A stretch of 24,191 nt of DNA from the IMG/VR virus record IMGVR_UViG_3300050010_000091, positions 1 through 24,191 of that record. One strand, 5' to 3'. The position numbers and the translations under genes are program-made. The stretch comes from a virus. Numbering within the stretch: the first letter of the stretch is position 1; every line of letters begins with the position of its first letter. The notes below the pieces were generated by a model. It did no database searches. It was not told the origin of the DNA and saw only the letters and a program-made list of their open reading frames with translations. Of the stretch, positions 3,904-24,191 are shown one piece after another.

Positions 3904-6900
3904 GCGTTCCTGCCTCCGATCAATAGGCGAGCATTCTTGATGAACGCGGAGAGCCGAGTCAGCTTGAAGCCGTTGTCAGTTCCCGTTACCGGCGAACTGG
4001 CAATCTGGATGAAAATCCTATTCCCGGTTACCGCACCGCCGCCAAACTCAATATCGAAGTTCGCGCTTCCGCTGCCGGAACGAGTCGTGCTCAGAGGCCA
4101 CAGGTTCGTGATCTTCTCAGGGAAATAGCTTGCCGTCACCTGCCCAGTATATTGCAGCGCCGCCATCAGGTACGCCAGAGAGATTCTCCCGCCTTTGAGT
4201 TGGAGTGCCTGCGCCTTCTCCGGGTCCAGGAACGCATAGGTCGTGTAGTACGGGAAAATCTGACCATAATCGTCGTCGGTGAATTTCGCCGGATTGAGCG
4301 TATAGATACTGCCAAACCCAGCCGCCGCGCCAAGTGTCTGACCGTTTCCTCCAAAGAACACGTTGCTCAACTGGCCAGCCGAACGGTACATGCGAGCCGC
4401 ACCGTTCATAGGGCGCAGCCAGTGCGTCCACTTGCGCGAATTGTCTGTGGCAATCAGCTTTCCGGCAAAGGACGGATGGAATGGCGGTGAGCTTGCGATG
4501 GCCTGCGAACTGCCCAGGTGCTCGTAATTCAGCACGTAGACCTGGTTGGGAGCGGTTGCGGAACCAATGGGAATGCCGAACATCAGCAAGCGCGCCACCG
4601 GATCATTGAGCGCCCAAACGGTTGCAGCCGCCGCCATGTTGATCTGCACAGCCGTATTCGAGCGCGTCGGTTCATTCCAATTCGGCTGGATTTCCTGACT
4701 GATCTTTTCAGGCAGACCACCGCCGTATATGATGGCCCCTACATCACTAGCCCATGCCATCCAATCGTCTCCGCCTGCCTCGCTGGAATCGTCCGCTTGC
4801 GAAGTGGTCAGGCAGAATGCCGAGAGCGCGCCGCAATTGCCCTGTACCGGCTCCACTTCCCATCCTGACGGCTCTGCTACCTTGCTTCCATTGGTGGAGT
4901 GCAGCTTGCCTCCTGGCGCTTGCGTGACAACGTGCAGCGTCCCGCGCACGATCCCCATGTCCATGATCTTCGCGGTATCGTCCGGCCCCCAGTCTCCTGT
5001 GTCTCCGTCCATGCCCTCGGGGTTGGTTACGTAGCTGGCGAAAGAACGATTGTCGAGATAAGGCGTCAGGACAGGGATAATGGAAAGCTCATCAATCCAT
5101 ATTTGACCAGCGCCGCCGCCGTTGTAGAGCGAAACCTGCAATTGAAGATTGGCCGGAATTGTCAGCGGAGTTTTCGCGGAGAACGTGACTTCCACCCAGC
5201 CGGTAAACGTGGCCTGCGTGGTGACAGGGAAGAAGCCATTTGCAATGAGGCCGGTTCCTGTGGACCAAAGAATAACTTCGACCCAACCGCTGCTTATAGG
5301 TCCACCCGTAATCTGAATCCATGCGCGGGCCTTGTATTGAGTGTTAGGTTGCAGAATCGGATTGCCGTATGCGTCCAGATACGCGCCCTGCTGGATCGTC
5401 ACTACGTTGAAATTATTGTTCTGGAATTGGCCTCCGGCGGGGCGGCTGGTCAGCGCCGTAATGTTGCCCGCGCCCGTCACCAATTGCCATCCCTGCGGGG
5501 CGCTGAGAGTAAAGTTCCCGGCAAAAGTAAACGGAGCATCAGCATCGAACCCCATGTTCAGGAAGTTATCGACCGTGTTCCGCTGGCCAAACGTCAATAG
5601 CCGGTCAAGGTATGTCCTGAATCCAAGCGCCCCTTCAACCACAATCTGCGAGGCGAGATTGTTGCCGGGTATGCTGATTCCAATGGCCGCATAGAGAGTA
5701 TTGTCTGAGAAGTCGAGTAGCGCCGTCGTGGTCGTATTGTCATTGATCTGCGTGGCTGTCGAGACAACTTGCCCCTCTAACTGCGCCGGAACGGGAATGT
5801 AGAAGAACGGCGGCAATTCTCCAGGAACGTCCGGTTGCGCTCCTGTGAAGGCAAGAATCCTTGCAATCACATTGGACGGTCCTTTAGGAATATTGCTCAC
5901 GCTCACATACTGCCCACCATTCAGAATGACCGTCATGGGCGGACTCGGTGCGGTGATGGCTCCCTGCCGCGTCAGGTAGAGAACCTGGCAAAGATGCAAT
6001 CCCGGCGCAGCCTGACCAAAAGGCGTAACGGTGCCCACAGCCGACGTGGACCCGTCCGGCCCCGGTTGATAGTAGTAGAAGTGGGTCGAGTCCACCACCT
6101 GCGTAACATAGAAGGTGCCCTCCCACGCGAATCCCACCGTGCCGCTTGTCCATGTGCCATCCGCATAAGTCACCGCGATGTAAAATGTGGTTGCGGTTGG
6201 GCAGGAATCAACCTCGAAATAGGTTGGCGTGGGCGTATTGTCCGGGATCGGCCACGACACGGAGAGCGTTCCTGTATTAGCCGTGGCATTGATAACGTCG
6301 GGGTCATTTGCCGTGATCGGAGTCTGAAAGTAGGAAATCTGATTCGGCGAGGGGACCGATTCTACCGTCACGCTGTTGCTGTTGAAGCTGAACGAAGTGC
6401 TGACCGTCGCAGTCGTTACCCCGGAAACTTGAAGCACGGCTCCCGGTTGCAGGTTGTGACTATTTGTCGTCGTTATTGTGGTTTTGCCAGCGGTCCACTG
6501 CGCCGCAGAGATTGTGGAAACAGTCGCCGGTTGCACGCCGACAAGAGAAATATCGATCCCTGGAATCAAACCATGCGGCTGTGTTGTGGTCACCAAGGCC
6601 AACCCCGGCGCGATTTCGTTGTTGATGACGATAGAGGACACAATCGCTACCGTGCGCGAACCGGAGAGCGTGTAGTAGATCTGAATCGTATAGGGACCAT
6701 TCAGAAAGTCTCGCACCGAATCCGCCGCGATGGAAATGGCGAATCCAAAGGTGGGATCATTGACCACGGTCGGCGTAAGAGACGCGCCCCATGTGTCAGC
6801 AGCGCCGCCATAGGAATTCTGGGTAACTGTGGTCGTGATAGCCGTTCCCGGCGTCTTGGCTGTGCCTACCTGTCCAGAACTATTCCAGAGCGCCACTTGA

Positions 6901-19269: not shown

Positions 19270-19435
19270 GGTAATCGTTCTCCTCTCGCGGGCCGCGCTT
19301 CACGTTCTTGAGTATCTCACGCTTGCGCCGGGTTGCCTGCTCCTGGGTCTCCATACGAGCCTTAGCGGTTTCCTCGCGCTGCTCGCGCACCCAGGTTTCG
19401 CGCTCGGATAAGGTTGTCCCTGTCACCTCGCCCAT
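19262..19435 (-). CDS. Small charged coiled-coil-like protein, 57 aa
   Basis: The ATG at 19433-19435 is preferred: it has GGGGAGGA ending 6 nt upstream and overlaps the large terminase end by 13 nt. The longer frame to 19534 would bury 112 nt in the terminase gene. The protein (begins MGEVTGTTLSERETWVREQR) is almost entirely Glu, Arg, Lys and Gln, consistent with one long helix (residues about 9-48). It ends NDYRD. No family is recognised. A short helical protein right after the large terminase could be a packaging accessory factor, but nothing in the sequence proves it. Confidence 0.65.
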   Translation of the reverse strand: MGEVTGTTLSERETWVREQREETAKARMETQEQATRRKREILKNVKRGPREENDYRD

Positions 19436-21174
19436 CTCGACTTCCTCCCCTTCGCGCTCTGCTGCGCCTCGTGCTCCATCTTCTTCATCTGGATCGCTTT
19501 GACCGTGTGATCCGCCGCGCCCATCTCCTGCCACTTCTCCTGCATCCGGACCGGCAATGGCGCTTTCTCCTTTGGATTCAGCACGCTCATTAAACCGTAA
19601 CGCATCCGGTCGAGAATGTCATCACTCATTGTCGGCATCTTCAAAACATCCTCCGCCCGGCCCGGATGCTTGTCATCCCGGATCGCCATCGGAACCGCTT
19701 CAATCGTCTCCTGACAGTCGCCAGAGATAAAAAACAGCGGCGTATTCAAAGAGTAACCCCCACCCTCGCGCTCGTAGTCGTCGTCCTCGCGGCTCGGATT
19801 CATGCACCCATCAAGCACATCGCAGGTCTTCTTCATCATGGCGTACATATAGCGCCAGCCGCCAATCCTCGCATTCGTCGCCTGCTCGGGATAGGGGAAT
19901 GTCACCTGCAACTCGCGGTCCTTGTAAGGCACCTTCTCAACCCGCAATAGTTCCCGGCTGATCTCATCGGCTACGCTATGACCCTTGGAGTCCTTCTCCC
20001 AGGCATCCACGCTCAGGAAATAGCGCATCATCGTCTTCGACTCTTCAAGCGTCGTCTGCCGCCGTGCCATGCGGATCAACTCTCCCGGCTCCGTCTCGGC
20101 AAGGTTAAGCTCCCGATACAGCACCACCACATTGACCGCATCGCTTATCTTGACGCCAAACACATCCTCGAACTGCTTTGGGGTTACCTTGCCACTCGTG
20201 AACCAGCCAATAGAAGCATGATGCACGAACCCATCATCGTGAGCCATCCAGCGCGTCCACCATGCCTGAACCAGCCGCTCTTGCTGGTGCGCCGACAGAA
20301 TCAGCTTGCTCTCATCCCACACTCCCGCAAAGTATTGGCCGGCGAATGAGTCGAAGCTGCCAAGCAGATGACCGGCGCGCAGGCTCGGAGGCAGCGTGTC
20401 CAGCTTCCTGCCCTCAGCCGTGCGATTGATGAACAAGTGGAACCGGCAGCACATGAACTCAGGACCATCGCCCGCTGCTCCGCACGGACACTCCTCACCG
20501 CTTCTCAATCCATCCGGCAACGCATAGAAGTCCTTTGCGCTGATCCCAAGCGGCTCAAACCACACATAGTTATCCCAGCCGAACAGGTGCACGAACGCGA
20601 AATCCTGCGCGCGCTCTCGTTCATGGAATCGCTTTTGATGGAATACCCGGCGCAGGAACTCTGTACCGATCCCGCCTGGATTGAAGAACAGGCCCGTTTT
20701 GCAGTCGTTCACCGGCGCGCCTGGCCAGCGGTTTGCGCTCTTGATGATCGTTAGCTCGCGTTCCGTGAACTGCTCCGCCTGGTCAACGAAGATGTCGTAC
20801 CACTCCGGTCCCCAGAACGATTGATCGACCGCCTGCTGATTCTCGGCATACCGGAAGCACAGCCTCGACTTGTTGGGGAGCCTGAACTCCTGATCGGTTG
20901 CGCGCCAGTAAGGCAGCAACTCGGGATATTCGGCGAAATACTTTTGGATGTGGTTTTCGTTCACATCTTTATAGATGCGCCTGAGAATGACTCCCGGCGT
21001 CCCCGGCCGCTGCAACCGCCTGTCCAGCATGATGCGCCTGAGTCCGCCCGACTTGCCGCCAGCTCTCGCTCCACCCCCACCGATCCACGTTGCCGCATCG
21101 GGGCCGGTGCGGTACATCAGCTTACCGATCTCAAGCTGCTTCGGCTGGAGGAGAAGCTCTACTTCCTTTGCCAT
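19423..21174 (-). CDS. terL: Terminase large subunit
   Basis: 583 aa from the ATG at 21172-21174, which overlaps the upstream stop as TAATG; a GTG at 21234 would add 20 residues inside the preceding gene. The protein pumps DNA into the prohead at the portal and cuts concatemers. ATPase domain: Walker A GARAGGKS at 35-42; Walker B region DIFVDQAEQF with D131, Q132 and E134; an NPGG-type coupling segment at about 165-168. Nuclease domain: strand HHASIGWFTSG (about 318-328), YRELNLAETEPGELIRMA, VDAWEKDSKGHSVADEI with D390, and DDILDRMRYGLMSV with D518, D519 and D522. The first nuclease strand has Gly where many relatives have Asp, and the Walker B carries DQAE rather than DEA. A Cys cluster (C229, C231, C242, C243, then H246) forms an insertion between the two domains. 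Confidence 0.92.
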   Translation of the reverse strand: MAKEVELLLQPKQLEIGKLMYRTGPDAATWIGGGGARAGGKSGGLRRIMLDRRLQRPGTPGVILRRIYKDVNENHIQKYFAEYPELLPYWRATDQEFRLPNKSRLCFRYAENQQAVDQSFWGPEWYDIFVDQAEQFTERELTIIKSANRWPGAPVNDCKTGLFFNPGGIGTEFLRRVFHQKRFHERERAQDFAFVHLFGWDNYVWFEPLGISAKDFYALPDGLRSGEECPCGAAGDGPEFMCCRFHLFINRTAEGRKLDTLPPSLRAGHLLGSFDSFAGQYFAGVWDESKLILSAHQQERLVQAWWTRWMAHDDGFVHHASIGWFTSGKVTPKQFEDVFGVKISDAVNVVVLYRELNLAETEPGELIRMARRQTTLEESKTMMRYFLSVDAWEKDSKGHSVADEISRELLRVEKVPYKDRELQVTFPYPEQATNARIGGWRYMYAMMKKTCDVLDGCMNPSREDDDYEREGGGYSLNTPLFFISGDCQETIEAVPMAIRDDKHPGRAEDVLKMPTMSDDILDRMRYGLMSVLNPKEKAPLPVRMQEKWQEMGAADHTVKAIQMKKMEHEAQQSAKGRKSRWAR

Positions 21175-21524
21175 TACCGGCTGAGAATCAAGTTGCCGCT
21201 GCTCGGAGCCGTCGAAAACGTGCAGCGCAACCACACACTAGGCACGATGGGAAAGCCGACGCTGGTATTCGCCGCCGCTGTGATTGCCGAGCCGAGATAC
21301 GTATACGGCTGATAAAGGCTGGGCGTGTCCGAAGGCGCAATCTGCACTGTAGCCGTTTGGTTTGTGGTGTTTGTGAGGATCAGGGCAGTCTGCCCGCCTG
21401 GGTCTGGCCCCATACTGCACTGTTGCGTCGTTGTCACACTGCTGTCAGTTGCCGCGCTGTTTACAAGAGCGATCTCATTGCCGGGATATATTGCTCTCGG
21501 TGTGGCTGCGTTGTAGCTGGGCAT
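21174..21524 (-). CDS. Small beta-rich protein between the terminase subunits, 116 aa
   Basis: 116 aa; ATG at 21522-21524 with AAAGGAG 6 nt upstream, placed inside the last codons of the small terminase, and a 1-nt overlap (TAATG) with terL. The sequence is Thr/Ser/Ala/Pro-rich with alternating strands (NEIALVNSAATDSSVTTTQQ; TALILTNTTNQTATVQIAP; SVWLRCTFSTAPSSGNLILS) and suggests a beta sandwich like those of capsid decoration or other virion surface proteins. It has no HTH or charge pattern expected of a packaging factor. The strong ribosome site implies higher production than terL. Family not recognised. Confidence 0.75.
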   Translation of the reverse strand: MPSYNAATPRAIYPGNEIALVNSAATDSSVTTTQQCSMGPDPGGQTALILTNTTNQTATVQIAPSDTPSLYQPYTYLGSAITAAANTSVGFPIVPSVWLRCTFSTAPSSGNLILSR

Positions 21525-21527
21525 GGC

Positions 21528-21989
21528 TTACTCCTTTGCATCCAATATACTACGCGTCACGAATTGCAGCGGACCACCATCGGGACCGCTGTGCTCCTGC
21601 TGCACGCGATCACCGTACACTTTCGGCAACAGCTTCGCAGCAAGCCATTTCCGCGACTCAATACGCAGTTTGCGATGCTCAAGCATATCGGCGCGCTTGA
21701 TCTCGACTGAGCCATCAGCTTTCTTGGTGGTAATCACGCCTTCTTGTGTGGTATCAGCAATTTGCGTGATCTCATCCGCCATGACCTGAGCTTGATCTGC
21801 CCTGGCGCGCGCATATCTCTTGCAGAGATCGTCATCTTGCTGCAACCAGCGATAGAAAGTGCTTGGATTGATTGGGTTTCCAAGTTCTTCGAGGATTGCT
21901 CCCATTCCGCGCGGCTGTGTGGAAATGGCGTCGCAGATTGCATCTTGAAGCGCGCTCTCTTCCGGAGTCCACTGAATCGCAGATGGCAT
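21528..21989 (-). CDS. terS: Terminase small subunit
   Basis: 153 aa from the ATG at 21987-21989; a TTG at 22013 would add 8 residues and likewise lacks a ribosome site. Residues about 29-55 (GMGAILEELGNPINPSTFYR, then WLQQDDDLCKRYARAR) form the HTH that recognises DNA, with the Phe-Tyr-Arg-Trp helix typical of this family. Residues 60-118 are the helical oligomer-forming region (ADQAQVMADEITQIAD; DMLEHRKLRIESRKWLAAKL), and LLPKVYGDRVQQEHSGPDGG (120-139) is the signature end seen in many small terminases. It forms a ring that selects phage DNA and regulates TerL. The first base of the ATG lies 6 nt after a TACAAT box, so its transcript may be leaderless. Confidence 0.9.
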   Translation of the reverse strand: MPSAIQWTPEESALQDAICDAISTQPRGMGAILEELGNPINPSTFYRWLQQDDDLCKRYARARADQAQVMADEITQIADTTQEGVITTKKADGSVEIKRADMLEHRKLRIESRKWLAAKLLPKVYGDRVQQEHSGPDGGPLQFVTRSILDAKE

Positions 21990-21995
21990 ATTTGC

Positions 21996-22001
21996 ATTGT
22001 A
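21996..22001 (-). promoter_or_regulatory. -10-like box TACAAT upstream of terS
   Basis: TACAAT on the minus strand ends 6 nt before the terS ATG, so transcription would begin at or next to the start codon. CTGACA, a five-of-six match to the -35 consensus, lies 19 bases further upstream (22021-22026). There is no Shine-Dalgarno motif before the ATG, which fits a leaderless start. It could also be chance in an AT-rich spot. Confidence 0.35.
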
Positions 22002-22010
22002 GCGCAGTGT

Positions 22011-22022
22011 CAAGCGTGCTTG
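22011..22022. repeat. Interrupted palindrome CAAGC-GT-GCTTG upstream of terS
   Basis: Twelve bases form a 5-bp inverted repeat around a 2-bp centre, between the stop of the CxxC gene and the TACAAT box. A related short inverted repeat, CACACGCTTGTG, lies at 22059-22070 inside the CxxC gene. Such a site could be an operator for a dimeric repressor, but no regulator in this window is tied to it. Confidence 0.35.
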
Positions 22023-22214
22023 TCAGTTTTGTTCTGGAGCCTTGAATTTCGATGCTATCACACGCTTGTGCATCCGAAGGTGTAGCATCGAATCATTCCT
22101 GACTGAGACGCTTTGCTTGGAAGATCGCTGTTCCGCCTGGTTGCGATGTTCGGCGCAGAATCCTTGCGATTGCACGCGGTAGAGCGCCATCTTTCCGCAG
22201 ATAGCACACTTCAT
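22023..22214 (-). CDS. Small CxxC/CxxH zinc-finger-like protein, 63 aa
   Basis: 63 aa from ATG at 22212-22214. The first 23 residues hold C3, C6, C20 and H23 (MKCAICGKMALYRVQSQGFC, then AEHR), a C-x2-C-x13-C-x2-H arrangement suited to one zinc ion. The rest is basic and Ser/Arg-rich (SSKQSVSVRNDSM; MHKRVIASKFKAPEQN). It may bind nucleic acid, which would suit a small regulator, but this is inference. No Shine-Dalgarno motif is present; TATAAT lies 7 nt upstream of the ATG. It stands alone between a GC-rich hairpin region and the terS promoter candidate. Confidence 0.65.
   Translation of the reverse strand: MKCAICGKMALYRVQSQGFCAEHRNQAEQRSSKQSVSVRNDSMLHLRMHKRVIASKFKAPEQN
22051..22089. repeat. 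Inverted repeat GATGCTA / TAGCATC inside the CxxC gene
   Basis: Perfect 7-bp arms at 22051-22057 and 22083-22089 enclose 25 bases; allowing one bulged T the stem extends to about 10 bp. It lies in the coding end of the CxxC gene, upstream of terS. It may be an RNA structure or chance. Confidence 0.25.
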
Positions 22215-22221
22215 GTCGATG

Positions 22222-22227
22222 ATTATA
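22222..22227 (-). promoter_or_regulatory. Consensus -10 box TATAAT upstream of the CxxC gene
   Basis: TATAAT ends 7 nt before the ATG at 22214, the distance expected when transcription starts on the start codon itself. No good -35 is present in the GC-rich sequence 16-18 bases upstream, and the gene has no Shine-Dalgarno motif. The surrounding GATTATAATC is itself palindromic, so a plus-strand role cannot be excluded. Confidence 0.4.
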
Positions 22228-22231
22228 ATCG

Positions 22232-22270
22232 CGCGGCGGGTGGCGCATGCATCAGGCGCTTCCCGCCGCG
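22232..22270 (-). terminator. GC-rich stem-loop after the Ig-like gene, terminator candidate
   Basis: Perfect 9-bp arms CGCGGCGGG and CCCGCCGCG (22232-22240 and 22262-22270) enclose 21 bases that can pair further. On the minus strand it follows the stop of the Ig-like gene and is followed by CGATTATAATC rather than a long T-run, so termination may be weak or factor-assisted. It separates that gene from the CxxC gene. Confidence 0.4.
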
Positions 22271-22272
22271 TG

Positions 22273-22287
22273 TCCCCGGTTAGGGGA
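22273..22287 (-). other. Second short stem-loop directly after the Ig-like gene
   Basis: TCCCC-GGTTA-GGGGA forms a perfect 5-bp stem with a 5-base loop, 5 bases beyond the Ig-like gene's stop. It is stacked next to the larger GC-rich hairpin; together they would form a stable 3' end or an RNA processing site. Confidence 0.4.
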
Positions 22288-22292
22288 TGTGG

Positions 22293-22796
22293 TTACGGCG
22301 TTGGGGTGCTGAACTGCACCGCAATCGACTGGGTGAGCTGCTCAGGCGGGGGAGGGGTCACGCCGATGGTCTGGATCGTGAAAGCCTGCGACCAGGCAGA
22401 AACCACGCCATCGGTGTCGGTCACGGTAGCCGATGCGATGCCCTGCACGGCATTTCCGGCAGAGTCGGCCACCCCGGTGACGGTAGCGGTGGCGCTGTCC
22501 GAGTTGAGGACCACGGTCGCCGAGGGATCGGCAAAGCTGTACGAGACGTTTGAGAGAACGCCACCGGAAGGGGTGACGCCATCGGCCAGAAACGGCTGAA
22601 TCGAAGCGGTTGAAGTCTGTCCGACGTTCAAAACCAGAGCGTTGTCCATTGTGAAATCTCCTGTGAAAAGCACCGCGACGGCGCGGGTGAGTTGTTTGGG
22701 GTGCAATAGGCGCTCGATCTGCCTCTCGATGCGCTCAGCCAATTTCTCGATATGTTCCAGACGGCGCTCGATCTCGTGCTCGTGATGCCGTGACAT
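22293..22796 (-). CDS. Ig-like domain protein with helical N-terminus, 167 aa
   Basis: 167 aa from ATG at 22794-22796, with AGGAGG 7 nt upstream. Residues 1-33 (MSRHHEHEIERRLEHIEKLA, then ERIERQIERLLH) form a strongly charged amphipathic helix, likely a coiled coil. Residues about 50-145 look like one bacterial Ig-like (Big-type) domain: NALVLNVGQTSTASIQPFLA, VSYSFADPSATVVLNSD, TATVTGVADSAGN, IASATVTDTDG. The end is Pro-rich and finishes QLTQSIAVQFSTPTP, echoing QLTRAVAVLF at 35-44. A second ATG at 22647-22649 (Met50) has its own AGGAGA 8 nt upstream, so a 118-aa form containing only the Ig-like part may also be made. Ig-like proteins decorate capsids and tails in many phages; a decoration role is likely but unproven. 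Confidence 0.75.
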   Translation of the reverse strand: MSRHHEHEIERRLEHIEKLAERIERQIERLLHPKQLTRAVAVLFTGDFTMDNALVLNVGQTSTASIQPFLADGVTPSGGVLSNVSYSFADPSATVVLNSDSATATVTGVADSAGNAVQGIASATVTDTDGVVSAWSQAFTIQTIGVTPPPPEQLTQSIAVQFSTPTP

Positions 22797-22810
22797 TGCC
22801 GTCCTCCTGC

Positions 22811-22969
22811 TTAGATTCTATGCACTTTCAAGCGCATGTCGGTGCAAGATTGCACCCGCGGCACCGGCGGGATGATGAGCACGCGCTCGGAGCGCAGGCC
22901 GTCGATGTCCGTGTGCAGGATGAGTTGCACGCGGATTGCGGGCTTGCGAGTTGTTTTCAGGGCGTCCAC
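22811..22969 (-). CDS. Small protein, 52 aa, first gene of the left-hand block
   Basis: A GTG-started frame of 52 aa (opening DALKTTRKPAIRVQLILHTD after the initiator; ending RVQSCTDMRLKVHRI) closes with TAA 14 nt before the Ig-like gene. Strand-like pattern RVQLILHTDIDG, then ERVLIIPPVPRV suggests a small alpha/beta or beta protein. An in-frame TAA lies four codons upstream, so the GTG at 22967-22969 is the only plausible start. It has no spaced Shine-Dalgarno motif (AGGA lies 1 nt from the GTG), but TAAAAT ends 6 nt upstream. Codon composition is like the neighbours. Family not recognised; small size keeps the confidence moderate. Confidence 0.55.
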   Translation of the reverse strand: MDALKTTRKPAIRVQLILHTDIDGLRSERVLIIPPVPRVQSCTDMRLKVHRI

Positions 22970-23179
22970 GTCCTGATTTTACCATAATGCGGGATTTCAC
23001 GAATTATTTCACTTATTTGCGTTAAATATCTCTTGAGACGTTTGCGGAATAGGCGCAGGCTTATATCAGTAAGTGAGAAGCACCTGGTCATAGAACGCTT
23101 GACGTCTGGTCCACATTCGCCGTGGGGAACTCGATTAAGGCAGGCATAACCGCAGTACAGCGCATGGAGGCGCAGGAAT
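22970..23179. promoter_or_regulatory. Divergent intergenic region between the minus- and plus-strand blocks
   Basis: About 210 bases without a convincing gene, AT-rich at its left half. It must hold the promoters for both blocks. On the minus strand TAAAAT (22976-22981) ends 6 nt before the first start codon. Repeats ATTTCAC occur at 22994-23000 and 23006-23012, with ATTTGCG at 23015-23021. TTGACG at 23099-23104 is a possible plus-strand -35 but no good -10 follows at the right distance, so the plus-strand promoter is not identified. Confidence 0.5.
22976..22981 (-). promoter_or_regulatory. -10-like box TAAAAT upstream of the 52-aa gene
   Basis: TAAAAT on the minus strand is separated by 6 bases (CAGGAC) from the GTG at 22967-22969, so transcription could begin on the start codon. 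No convincing -35 is seen. It is the first of three similar boxes in front of minus-strand genes in this area. Confidence 0.3.
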
Positions 23180-23359
23180 ATGACCTTCTGGGTTTTAACT
23201 GAGGATGAACGCGAGCGCCGAAACGTGATGCGCGCCGAAGAAAACAGGCTCGTAAACGCGCTGTTCGCTATCCGCCGGGAACTGGCCGATTTCGAGCAAG
23301 AGATCGCAGCCAAGCGCCCTCCGAGCACGCTCGTTGCCATTCGTACGGTGACCCTATGA
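23180..23359 (+). CDS. Small charged helical protein, 59 aa, first plus-strand gene
   Basis: 59 aa from ATG at 23180 with GGAGG and AGGA upstream (4-10 nt away). The protein begins MTFWVLTEDERERRNVMRAE and is mostly charged helix (NRLVNALFAIRRELADFEQE), ending in a short Thr/Val strand. Its stop overlaps the ATG of the next gene as ATGA, so the two are translationally coupled. No family is recognised. A coiled-coil partner of the downstream recombinase-domain-like protein is conceivable, but this is speculation from the overlap. Confidence 0.65.
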   Translation: MTFWVLTEDERERRNVMRAEENRLVNALFAIRRELADFEQEIAAKRPPSTLVAIRTVTL

Positions 23360-23661
23360 TCCTCTGCCCACGTTGCGGCCTGGAACTGACCTCGGAGATG
23401 CTCAACCGGCGCGGCGGAAAGAAGGCATTCGGCACCATGCCCGGTGAAGCTGAGACGCTGGCGTGGATGCGAGAAATGCGCGCAGTCAGGGGCGTTACCT
23501 TCGACAGCATAGCCAAGGCTCTAAATGCCTTCCACCATCCCACGCGCACCGGCAAGCCCTGGCGCATCTCCACGGTGGCCGGCATTCTCTCTCGTGTCAC
23601 AGCACCTGGTGATGACAGTCATAGACACGCGGCGGACGGAAGCCATACCGTGAAGGAATGA
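23356..23661 (+). CDS. Small protein with CPRC motif and recombinase-type accessory domain, 101 aa
   Basis: 101 aa starting at an ATG that overlaps the previous stop. Residues 1-8 hold MILCPRCG, half of a zinc ribbon. Residues about 35-80 (LAWMREMRAVRGVTFDSIAK, then ALNAFHHPTRTGKPWRIS and TVAGILSR) match the helical 'Recombinase' domain that follows the catalytic domain in large serine recombinases, including the Ln...G..tr.GkpW....V..IL pattern. The catalytic N-terminal domain with its active-site Ser and Arg residues is absent, so this is not an active recombinase. It is more likely a DNA-binding regulator built from that domain. Its stop overlaps the next gene's ATG. Confidence 0.7.
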   Translation: MILCPRCGLELTSEMLNRRGGKKAFGTMPGEAETLAWMREMRAVRGVTFDSIAKALNAFHHPTRTGKPWRISTVAGILSRVTAPGDDSHRHAADGSHTVKE

Positions 23662-24191
23662 GCAAGCAAGTACAGGCCGTGCCGCTCGCGGTACTCAGGC
23701 GCATGGCGCGGCTGGCATTGGCACGGCTGGAGAATTTGAAGAAGGAGCGCGGAGGCGCAATCATGTGCAACTTTTTTAGTGCGGTACTTACCAAAGATGG
23801 CGAGTTTTGGCACGAGTCCGACTCGCATGAGACCATCATCCGCGAGTTCGGTTTGCACGCGGATGGGGCGAAGGGTACGAACATCCTGCGCGTTGAACTT
23901 GTGCCATCGGCCAATACTCGCACGCTTGAGGATTTTGCATCTTATGATTTTAAGATCAACCAAGATTTAAAGCCGGAATGGTTTGATGCAGCAGACGCCG
24001 AACTGCGTAGTCGGGAGGCTTTGGCGCGTAGGTTTGGAGCGGCCAAGGTAGAGCGCGTAGGAAACCTTGTGATCCCCACGAAGTCTCACATCCTCTGCGA
24101 CGCGCTGACCAGCGTGGGCGGCTACCTCGACATCCGCGCCGATGCCAAGCTCGACGCGCTGACCAGCGTGGGCGGCTCCCTCGAAATCCGC
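23658..24191 (+). CDS. Repeat protein with 18-residue leucine-rich-like repeats, C-terminus outside the window
   Basis: The frame is open from an ATG overlapping the previous stop (ATGA) through the window edge, 178 codons visible. A second in-frame ATG at 23763 has GGAGG 8 nt upstream and begins MCNFFSAVLTKDGEFWHESD, which is where related phage proteins usually start; the 35-residue basic helix before it (LAVLRRMARLALARLENLKK) may be an extra domain or not translated. The conserved N-terminal domain (to about residue 125) has HETIIREFGL, ILRVELVPS and LKPEWFDAADAEL, a pattern common in phage and mobile-element repeat proteins. From residue 148 the unit LDALTSVGGxLxIRADAK repeats every 18 residues. 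Such repeats form a solenoid that binds a partner. The role is not known. Confidence 0.75.
   Translation, partial: MSKQVQAVPLAVLRRMARLALARLENLKKERGGAIMCNFFSAVLTKDGEFWHESDSHETIIREFGLHADGAKGTNILRVELVPSANTRTLEDFASYDFKINQDLKPEWFDAADAELRSREALARRFGAAKVERVGNLVIPTKSHILCDALTSVGGYLDIRADAKLDALTSVGGSLEIR
24099..24191 (+). repeat. 54-bp tandem repeat coding for the 18-residue unit
   Basis: The 25-bp stretch beginning GACGCGCTGACCAGCG occurs identically at 24099-24123 and 24153-24177, period 54 bases, and the bases after it (CCTCGAxATCCGC) are nearly identical too. The array continues past the window edge, so the repeat number is unknown. High DNA identity between units points to recent duplication. Confidence 0.85.

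Follow-up and report, generated by a model that had tools for sequence, protein, structure and literature searches.

Candidate leaderless promoters at the head of a phage packaging operon and a recurring TANNNT box before start codons in related phages

Three minus-strand genes of an uncultivated phage, namely a 52-aa ORF, a gene for a small CxxC protein and the terminase gene terS, each carry a TANAAT box directly before the start codon, and we consider it likely (probability about 0.78) that these boxes are the -10 elements of leaderless promoters read by a housekeeping-type sigma factor of the host. This placement of the box is very probably real, because it recurs in many related phages. 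In the proposed mechanism, RNA polymerase would start at, or about 0-3 nt from, the three start codons, the resulting mRNAs would carry no Shine-Dalgarno (SD) leader, and ribosomes would initiate on the 5'-terminal start codon; terS would lead the packaging and structural series, with the downstream genes using SD motifs or translational overlap, and the host would be an acidobacterium whose own genes share the box arrangement. Leaderless transcription of these genes had been suggested by a sequence-only reading, and it is supported here by the position and conservation of the boxes, by enrichment of -35 elements across the family, by SD depletion and by the base at -1, but the need for a phage or alternative sigma factor, which that reading had raised as a possibility, found no support.

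The window, that is, the whole stretch of DNA analysed, is a virus record of 24,191 bases with a G+C content of about 57-58%, presumably of soil origin given the kind of collection. Its minus-strand structural series runs, from the right, through the 52-aa ORF, a 167-aa gene, the CxxC gene, terS, a 116-aa gene and terL onward, with terS heading the terS-116aa-terL series. The features are as follows (L013 and L014 are related loci).

22976..22981, minus strand: candidate -10 box TAAAAT of the 52-aa gene, N6 to the GTG at 22969-22967, with TGG directly 5' (extended -10 form TATGGTAAAAT)
22811..22969, minus strand: 52-aa ORF with GTG start; the L013/L014 homologue is about 51-53% identical
22815..22820, minus strand: TAGAAT box upstream of the SD-led 167-aa gene (AGGAGG, ATG 22796)
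22293..22796, minus strand: 167-aa gene, SD-led
22231..22272, minus strand: strong G+C-rich hairpin GCGGCGGG..CCCGCCGC, directly upstream of the CxxC box; z -4.75 (72-nt stretch)
22222..22227, minus strand: candidate -10 box TATAAT of the CxxC gene, N7 to the ATG at 22214-22212
22023..22214, minus strand: CxxC gene, 63 aa; the L013/L014 homologue is 61% identical
22048..22092, minus strand: inverted repeat TTCGATGCTA..TAGCATCGAA in the CxxC coding sequence, about 60-100 nt upstream of the terS start
21996..22001, minus strand: candidate -10 box TACAAT of terS, N6 to the ATG at 21989-21987
21528..21989, minus strand: terS, Sf6-type small terminase subunit (PF20901 1e-27; phrog_1482 2e-32)
21174..21524, minus strand: 116-aa gene, SD-led (AAGGAG), without a box
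19423..21174, minus strand: terL (large terminase subunit), with an ATG that overlaps the 116-aa gene at its end

The boxes lie 6, 7 and 6 nt before the 52-aa, CxxC and terS starts, in agreement to the base with the sequence-only reading, so that the first T of TANNNT falls at -12, -13 and -12, respectively (the terS start being taken as ATG 21989 and not as the upstream in-frame TTG 22013). The absence of a properly spaced SD motif also held, given that none of AGGA, GGAG, GAGG or AAGG occurs at proper spacing before the three starts; an AGGA 1 nt before the 52-aa GTG is too close to serve as SD. Among the 27 minus-strand starts, listed by hand, 16 have an SD-like tetramer at proper spacing. 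TANAAT occurs only seven times on the minus strand of the window, and four of these copies fall within 21,996-22,981; three precede starts by 6-7 nt, and the fourth lies at 22,820, where it is possibly a leadered promoter of the 167-aa gene. At -12/-13 the motif is found at 3 of the 27 starts against 0.016 expected (Poisson P 6e-7), a post hoc value, as the motif was picked after being seen and terS was counted from ATG 21989; relatives were therefore examined as an independent test.

In close relatives the boxes are identical, and those of terS and CxxC persist in diverged ones, so that loss of the boxes in close relatives that keep the genes, which would have argued against leaderless transcription, was not observed; the one exception is a diverged homologue of the 52-aa gene, which lacks its box. 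The terS box of locus L002 is identical to that of the window; L003 and L007, whose terS proteins are 96% identical, keep TGCGCTACAATGCAAATATG with a different sequence directly upstream, and the terS of L008 (52% identity) has TAGAAT-N6-ATG. When terS starts were chosen by eye from N-terminal homology, TANNNT was present at -12 to -18 in 19 of 28 genes and no box was found there in the other nine; six of the 28 have an SD tetramer, and box and SD occur together in one. This table leaves out 14 of the 41 loci with terS matches: near copies (L002, L009, L010, L014, L031, L048 and L054), genes cut at the contig end (L027 and L065) and those with an uncertain start or of another type (L004, L005, L006, L069 and L070). 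The objective count, with blindly chosen starts, gave a box at -15 to -12 in 9 of 38 dereplicated terS genes.

The CxxC homologue of L013/L014 is preceded by TAATCT-N6-GTG in an unrelated flank, and the TAA of this box doubles as the stop codon of the 52-aa homologue before it; CxxC matches in L136 and L137 were rejected, as only a short stretch was shared, in an unrelated frame. The box of the 52-aa gene is kept in the close relatives L002 and L008, and no box was found at the corresponding place of the diverged L013/L014 homologue. The 52-aa ORF had no PHROGs or Pfam match at E 0.001, both it and the CxxC ORF were missed by the coding-score caller, and of the three cases, that of the 52-aa gene is the weakest. 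Within the CxxC gene, both arms of the inverted repeat are nucleotide-identical in L013 (1711-1764) and L014 (431-484), with loops that differ in length and sequence. Because the arms are identical at 61% protein identity and the loop is divergent, this comparison suggests that the repeat may be under selection as an RNA hairpin or operator.

For the family-wide survey, relatives were found by scanning viral contigs with terL, at identities of 31-99%. The set comprised 1,147 genes with 70 upstream bases from 84 loci, the window included, or 836 genes after clustering at 85%; left out were L001, which copies the window, L003, which copies L007, and the genome contigs L040 and L041. Genes were called by dicodon score, blind to upstream signals, an earlier greedy caller having been dropped for its many spurious calls. 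Counting boxes in related phages, a check that the sequence-only reading had proposed, revealed a clear peak: TANNNT starts at -12 in 25 of the 836 genes and at -13 in 13, against a positional background at -60 to -20 with a mean of 6.85 per position and a maximum of 12 (P 7e-8 for the -12 peak). When all 64 gapped patterns of the form ab...c were ranked at 14 positions in the 439 genes without an SD tetramer, TA...T at -12 came first (8.7e-10) and TA...T at -13 second (6.5e-5).

Several properties distinguish the boxed genes. An SD is present in only 5 of 38 boxed genes versus 392 of 798 unboxed ones (P 7e-6), and a -35 element matching TTGACA in at least 5 of 6 positions, at spacers of 16-19, precedes 14 of the 38 boxes at -12/-13 versus 10 of 194 boxes at -44 to -17 (P 6e-7). 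Boxed SD-less genes are operon heads in 28 of 33 cases (480/836 for all genes). The base at -1 is C in 24 of these 33 genes versus 225 of 798 unboxed genes (P 3e-7), and a pyrimidine in 29 of 33 versus 348 of 798; in the window it is T for terS and C for both the CxxC and 52-aa genes. Transcription start sites prefer a pyrimidine at -1 and a purine at +1, and the bias therefore fits a +1 at the A of the ATG. A promoter-first count, independent of gene calling and using the first ATG or GTG opening at least 35 codons, gave the same spacing: of 46 distinct perfect TTGACA-N16-18-TANNNT promoters, 14 have the start codon at N6 (10) or N7 (4), and at most three have it at any other spacing. The TGn extended -10 form was found at 9 of 38 boxes at -12/-13 versus 21 of 194 elsewhere (P 0.06).

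On the host side, a related terL was found in one of 396 Acidobacteriota genomes, the Bryobacterales MAG G001, on a contig of 44,234 bases, with terL at 38% and capsid at 45% identity; capsid matches occurred in three of the 396 genomes, two of them weak. A scan of genome contigs found only this contig and one from a Patescibacteria MAG, and the terS model found no terS in the searched stretches of the G001 phage contig. The own genes of G001 (n=532) show TANNNT at -12 in 20 cases versus a background of 3.34 (P 5e-10), and none of its 34 leaderless boxes has a consensus -35. No -12 peak was seen in the 444 genes of another member of the Acidobacteriota, G011 (5 versus 6.02), and the gene samples of G007 and G010 were too small for such a count. 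Three proteobacterial control phages, pooled (140 genes), had 3 boxes at -12 versus 0.61, with a -35 in 0/4, and the other controls, an Arthrobacter phage and 50 kb of E. coli, had one each at -12. The phage family may have an acidobacterial host.

The -35 elements of the window boxes had been described as weak or absent, and this was borne out: at spacers 16-18 the best match to TTGACA is 2/6 for each of the three boxes, and a CTGACA (5/6) upstream of terS is present only at spacer 19. A TGn precedes the box of the 52-aa gene and is absent from those of CxxC and terS. Thus the TTGACA-like -35 at 16-18 nt of a sigma-70-type promoter is lacking at the three window boxes, in contrast to many boxed genes of the family. 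Because many boxes in related phages follow a perfect TTGACA, a housekeeping sigma factor is indicated, and since -10-only leaderless boxes prevail in G001, a special phage or alternative sigma factor is not needed.

Within the family there nevertheless seem to be two leaderless classes, given that a -35 of at least 5/6 precedes none of the 19 terS boxes picked by eye but 10 of 16 boxed SD-less genes of at most 100 aa (P 4e-5). This contrast and the 2/6 matches of the window favour an alternative in which the boxes are true leaderless promoters and the late ones (terS, perhaps CxxC) lack a -35 and need a phage activator or altered polymerase, unlike the early regulators with a full TTGACA. The late class may have an auxiliary activator, but an obligatory one appears rather unlikely, as -10-only boxes may be ordinary in a genome such as G001, a TGn extended -10 at the 52-aa box and at some terS boxes could replace the -35, and no activator gene was identified. 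Similarly tentative is the broader proposal of a widespread uncultivated soil phage family, perhaps living on acidobacteria, in which early regulators form a TTGACA class and a phage factor switches on a -35-less terS class, so that late packaging mRNAs would be translated leaderless.

A second alternative is that the boxes are not promoters but unstructured A/T-rich starts that permit SD-less initiation on a long transcript made upstream. SD-poor starts are indeed common in these phages (439 of 836 genes have no SD tetramer), and the genes are closely spaced on a single strand. We regard this as improbable, because what stands out is not general A/T richness but a spaced TA...T confined to one or two exact positions, linked to a TTGACA lying 16-19 nt upstream of it and accompanied by a pyrimidine at -1. 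Finally, that three TANAAT copies fell near starts by coincidence, as the post hoc notice of the motif and the uncertain 52-aa gene might suggest, is very improbable in view of the 0.016 matches expected, the conservation of boxes in homologues with different flanks and the family-wide -12 peak.

Leaderless genes, phage ones included, are already known; lambda cI is a leaderless phage gene, and discussion of such phage genes usually centres on repressors. Gene 90 of mycobacteriophage Adephagia is predicted to be leaderless as well. Like these regulatory or toxin-antitoxin genes, the boxed small genes found here include LexA-type and HicB/RHH-type members; unlike them, the leaderless candidate of the window is a late gene, terS, without a -35. 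Zheng et al. 2011 (PMC3160421), who credit lambda phage for the discovery of leaderless genes, describe TA-led leaderless genes with TANNNT some 12 bp upstream of the start codon and no SD, found in all three Acidobacteria genomes that they list (9.7-19.4% of genes, mean 13.3%) and also in Actinobacteria and Deinococcus-Thermus. The boxes of the window and its family match these genes in position, SD absence and excess over the positional background, but the TA-led genes are cellular, whereas the genes here belong to an uncultivated phage family and a series of three heads the packaging operon. In Deinococcus-Thermus, experiments showed that the ORF-adjacent TANNNT is the -10 element of leaderless genes (PMC12340547), the same element adjoining ORFs as here but in a different phylum, and with no phage mentioned in the main text of that study. 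In searches of the open-licence literature, no title or abstract opening among the papers listed described late genes of such phages as leaderless.

If the late packaging operon does start with leaderless mRNAs, late genes could use the leaderless-mRNA ribosome pathway, and gene callers that expect an SD will misplace these starts. A TANNNT 6-7 nt before an ATG also offers a testable promoter rule for phages without a cultured host.

Ten boxed genes were compared with Pfam. The best matches were to a LexA DNA-binding domain, to an RHH protein of the HicB type and, weakly, to HTH_3; one further gene matched YdaS below the threshold, and the remaining six matched nothing. In L012 (279-505) and L025 (3170-3406), a small gene with its own -12 box is divergent from terS; that of L025 is of the HicB/RHH type by Pfam, and that of L012 is RHH-like by eye, without a Pfam match. 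GATAATC/GATTATC repeats lie between the divergent small-gene and terS starts of L012. Such pairs could possibly switch the late operon by autoregulation.

Boxed genes showed no enrichment of upstream hairpins (z below -2 in 4/28 versus 12/120, P 0.55), so that a terminator followed by a leaderless promoter is not a family rule, though the CxxC gene shows this order. A terminator-like hairpin lies closely before TAATAT-N6-ATG in L033 (upstream of 561), and another closely before TACAAT-N6-ATG in L015 (upstream of the minus-strand gene 6099-6230). Elsewhere in the window, a 101-aa ORF on the plus strand (23356-23661) matches the serine integrase recombinase domain (PF07508 1e-6, phrog_95 9e-7) and is apparently a fragment of such a recombinase, and a repeated peptide motif, LDALTSVGGxLxIR, begins at the end of the record (24115-24191, plus strand) in an ORF that opens at 23658.
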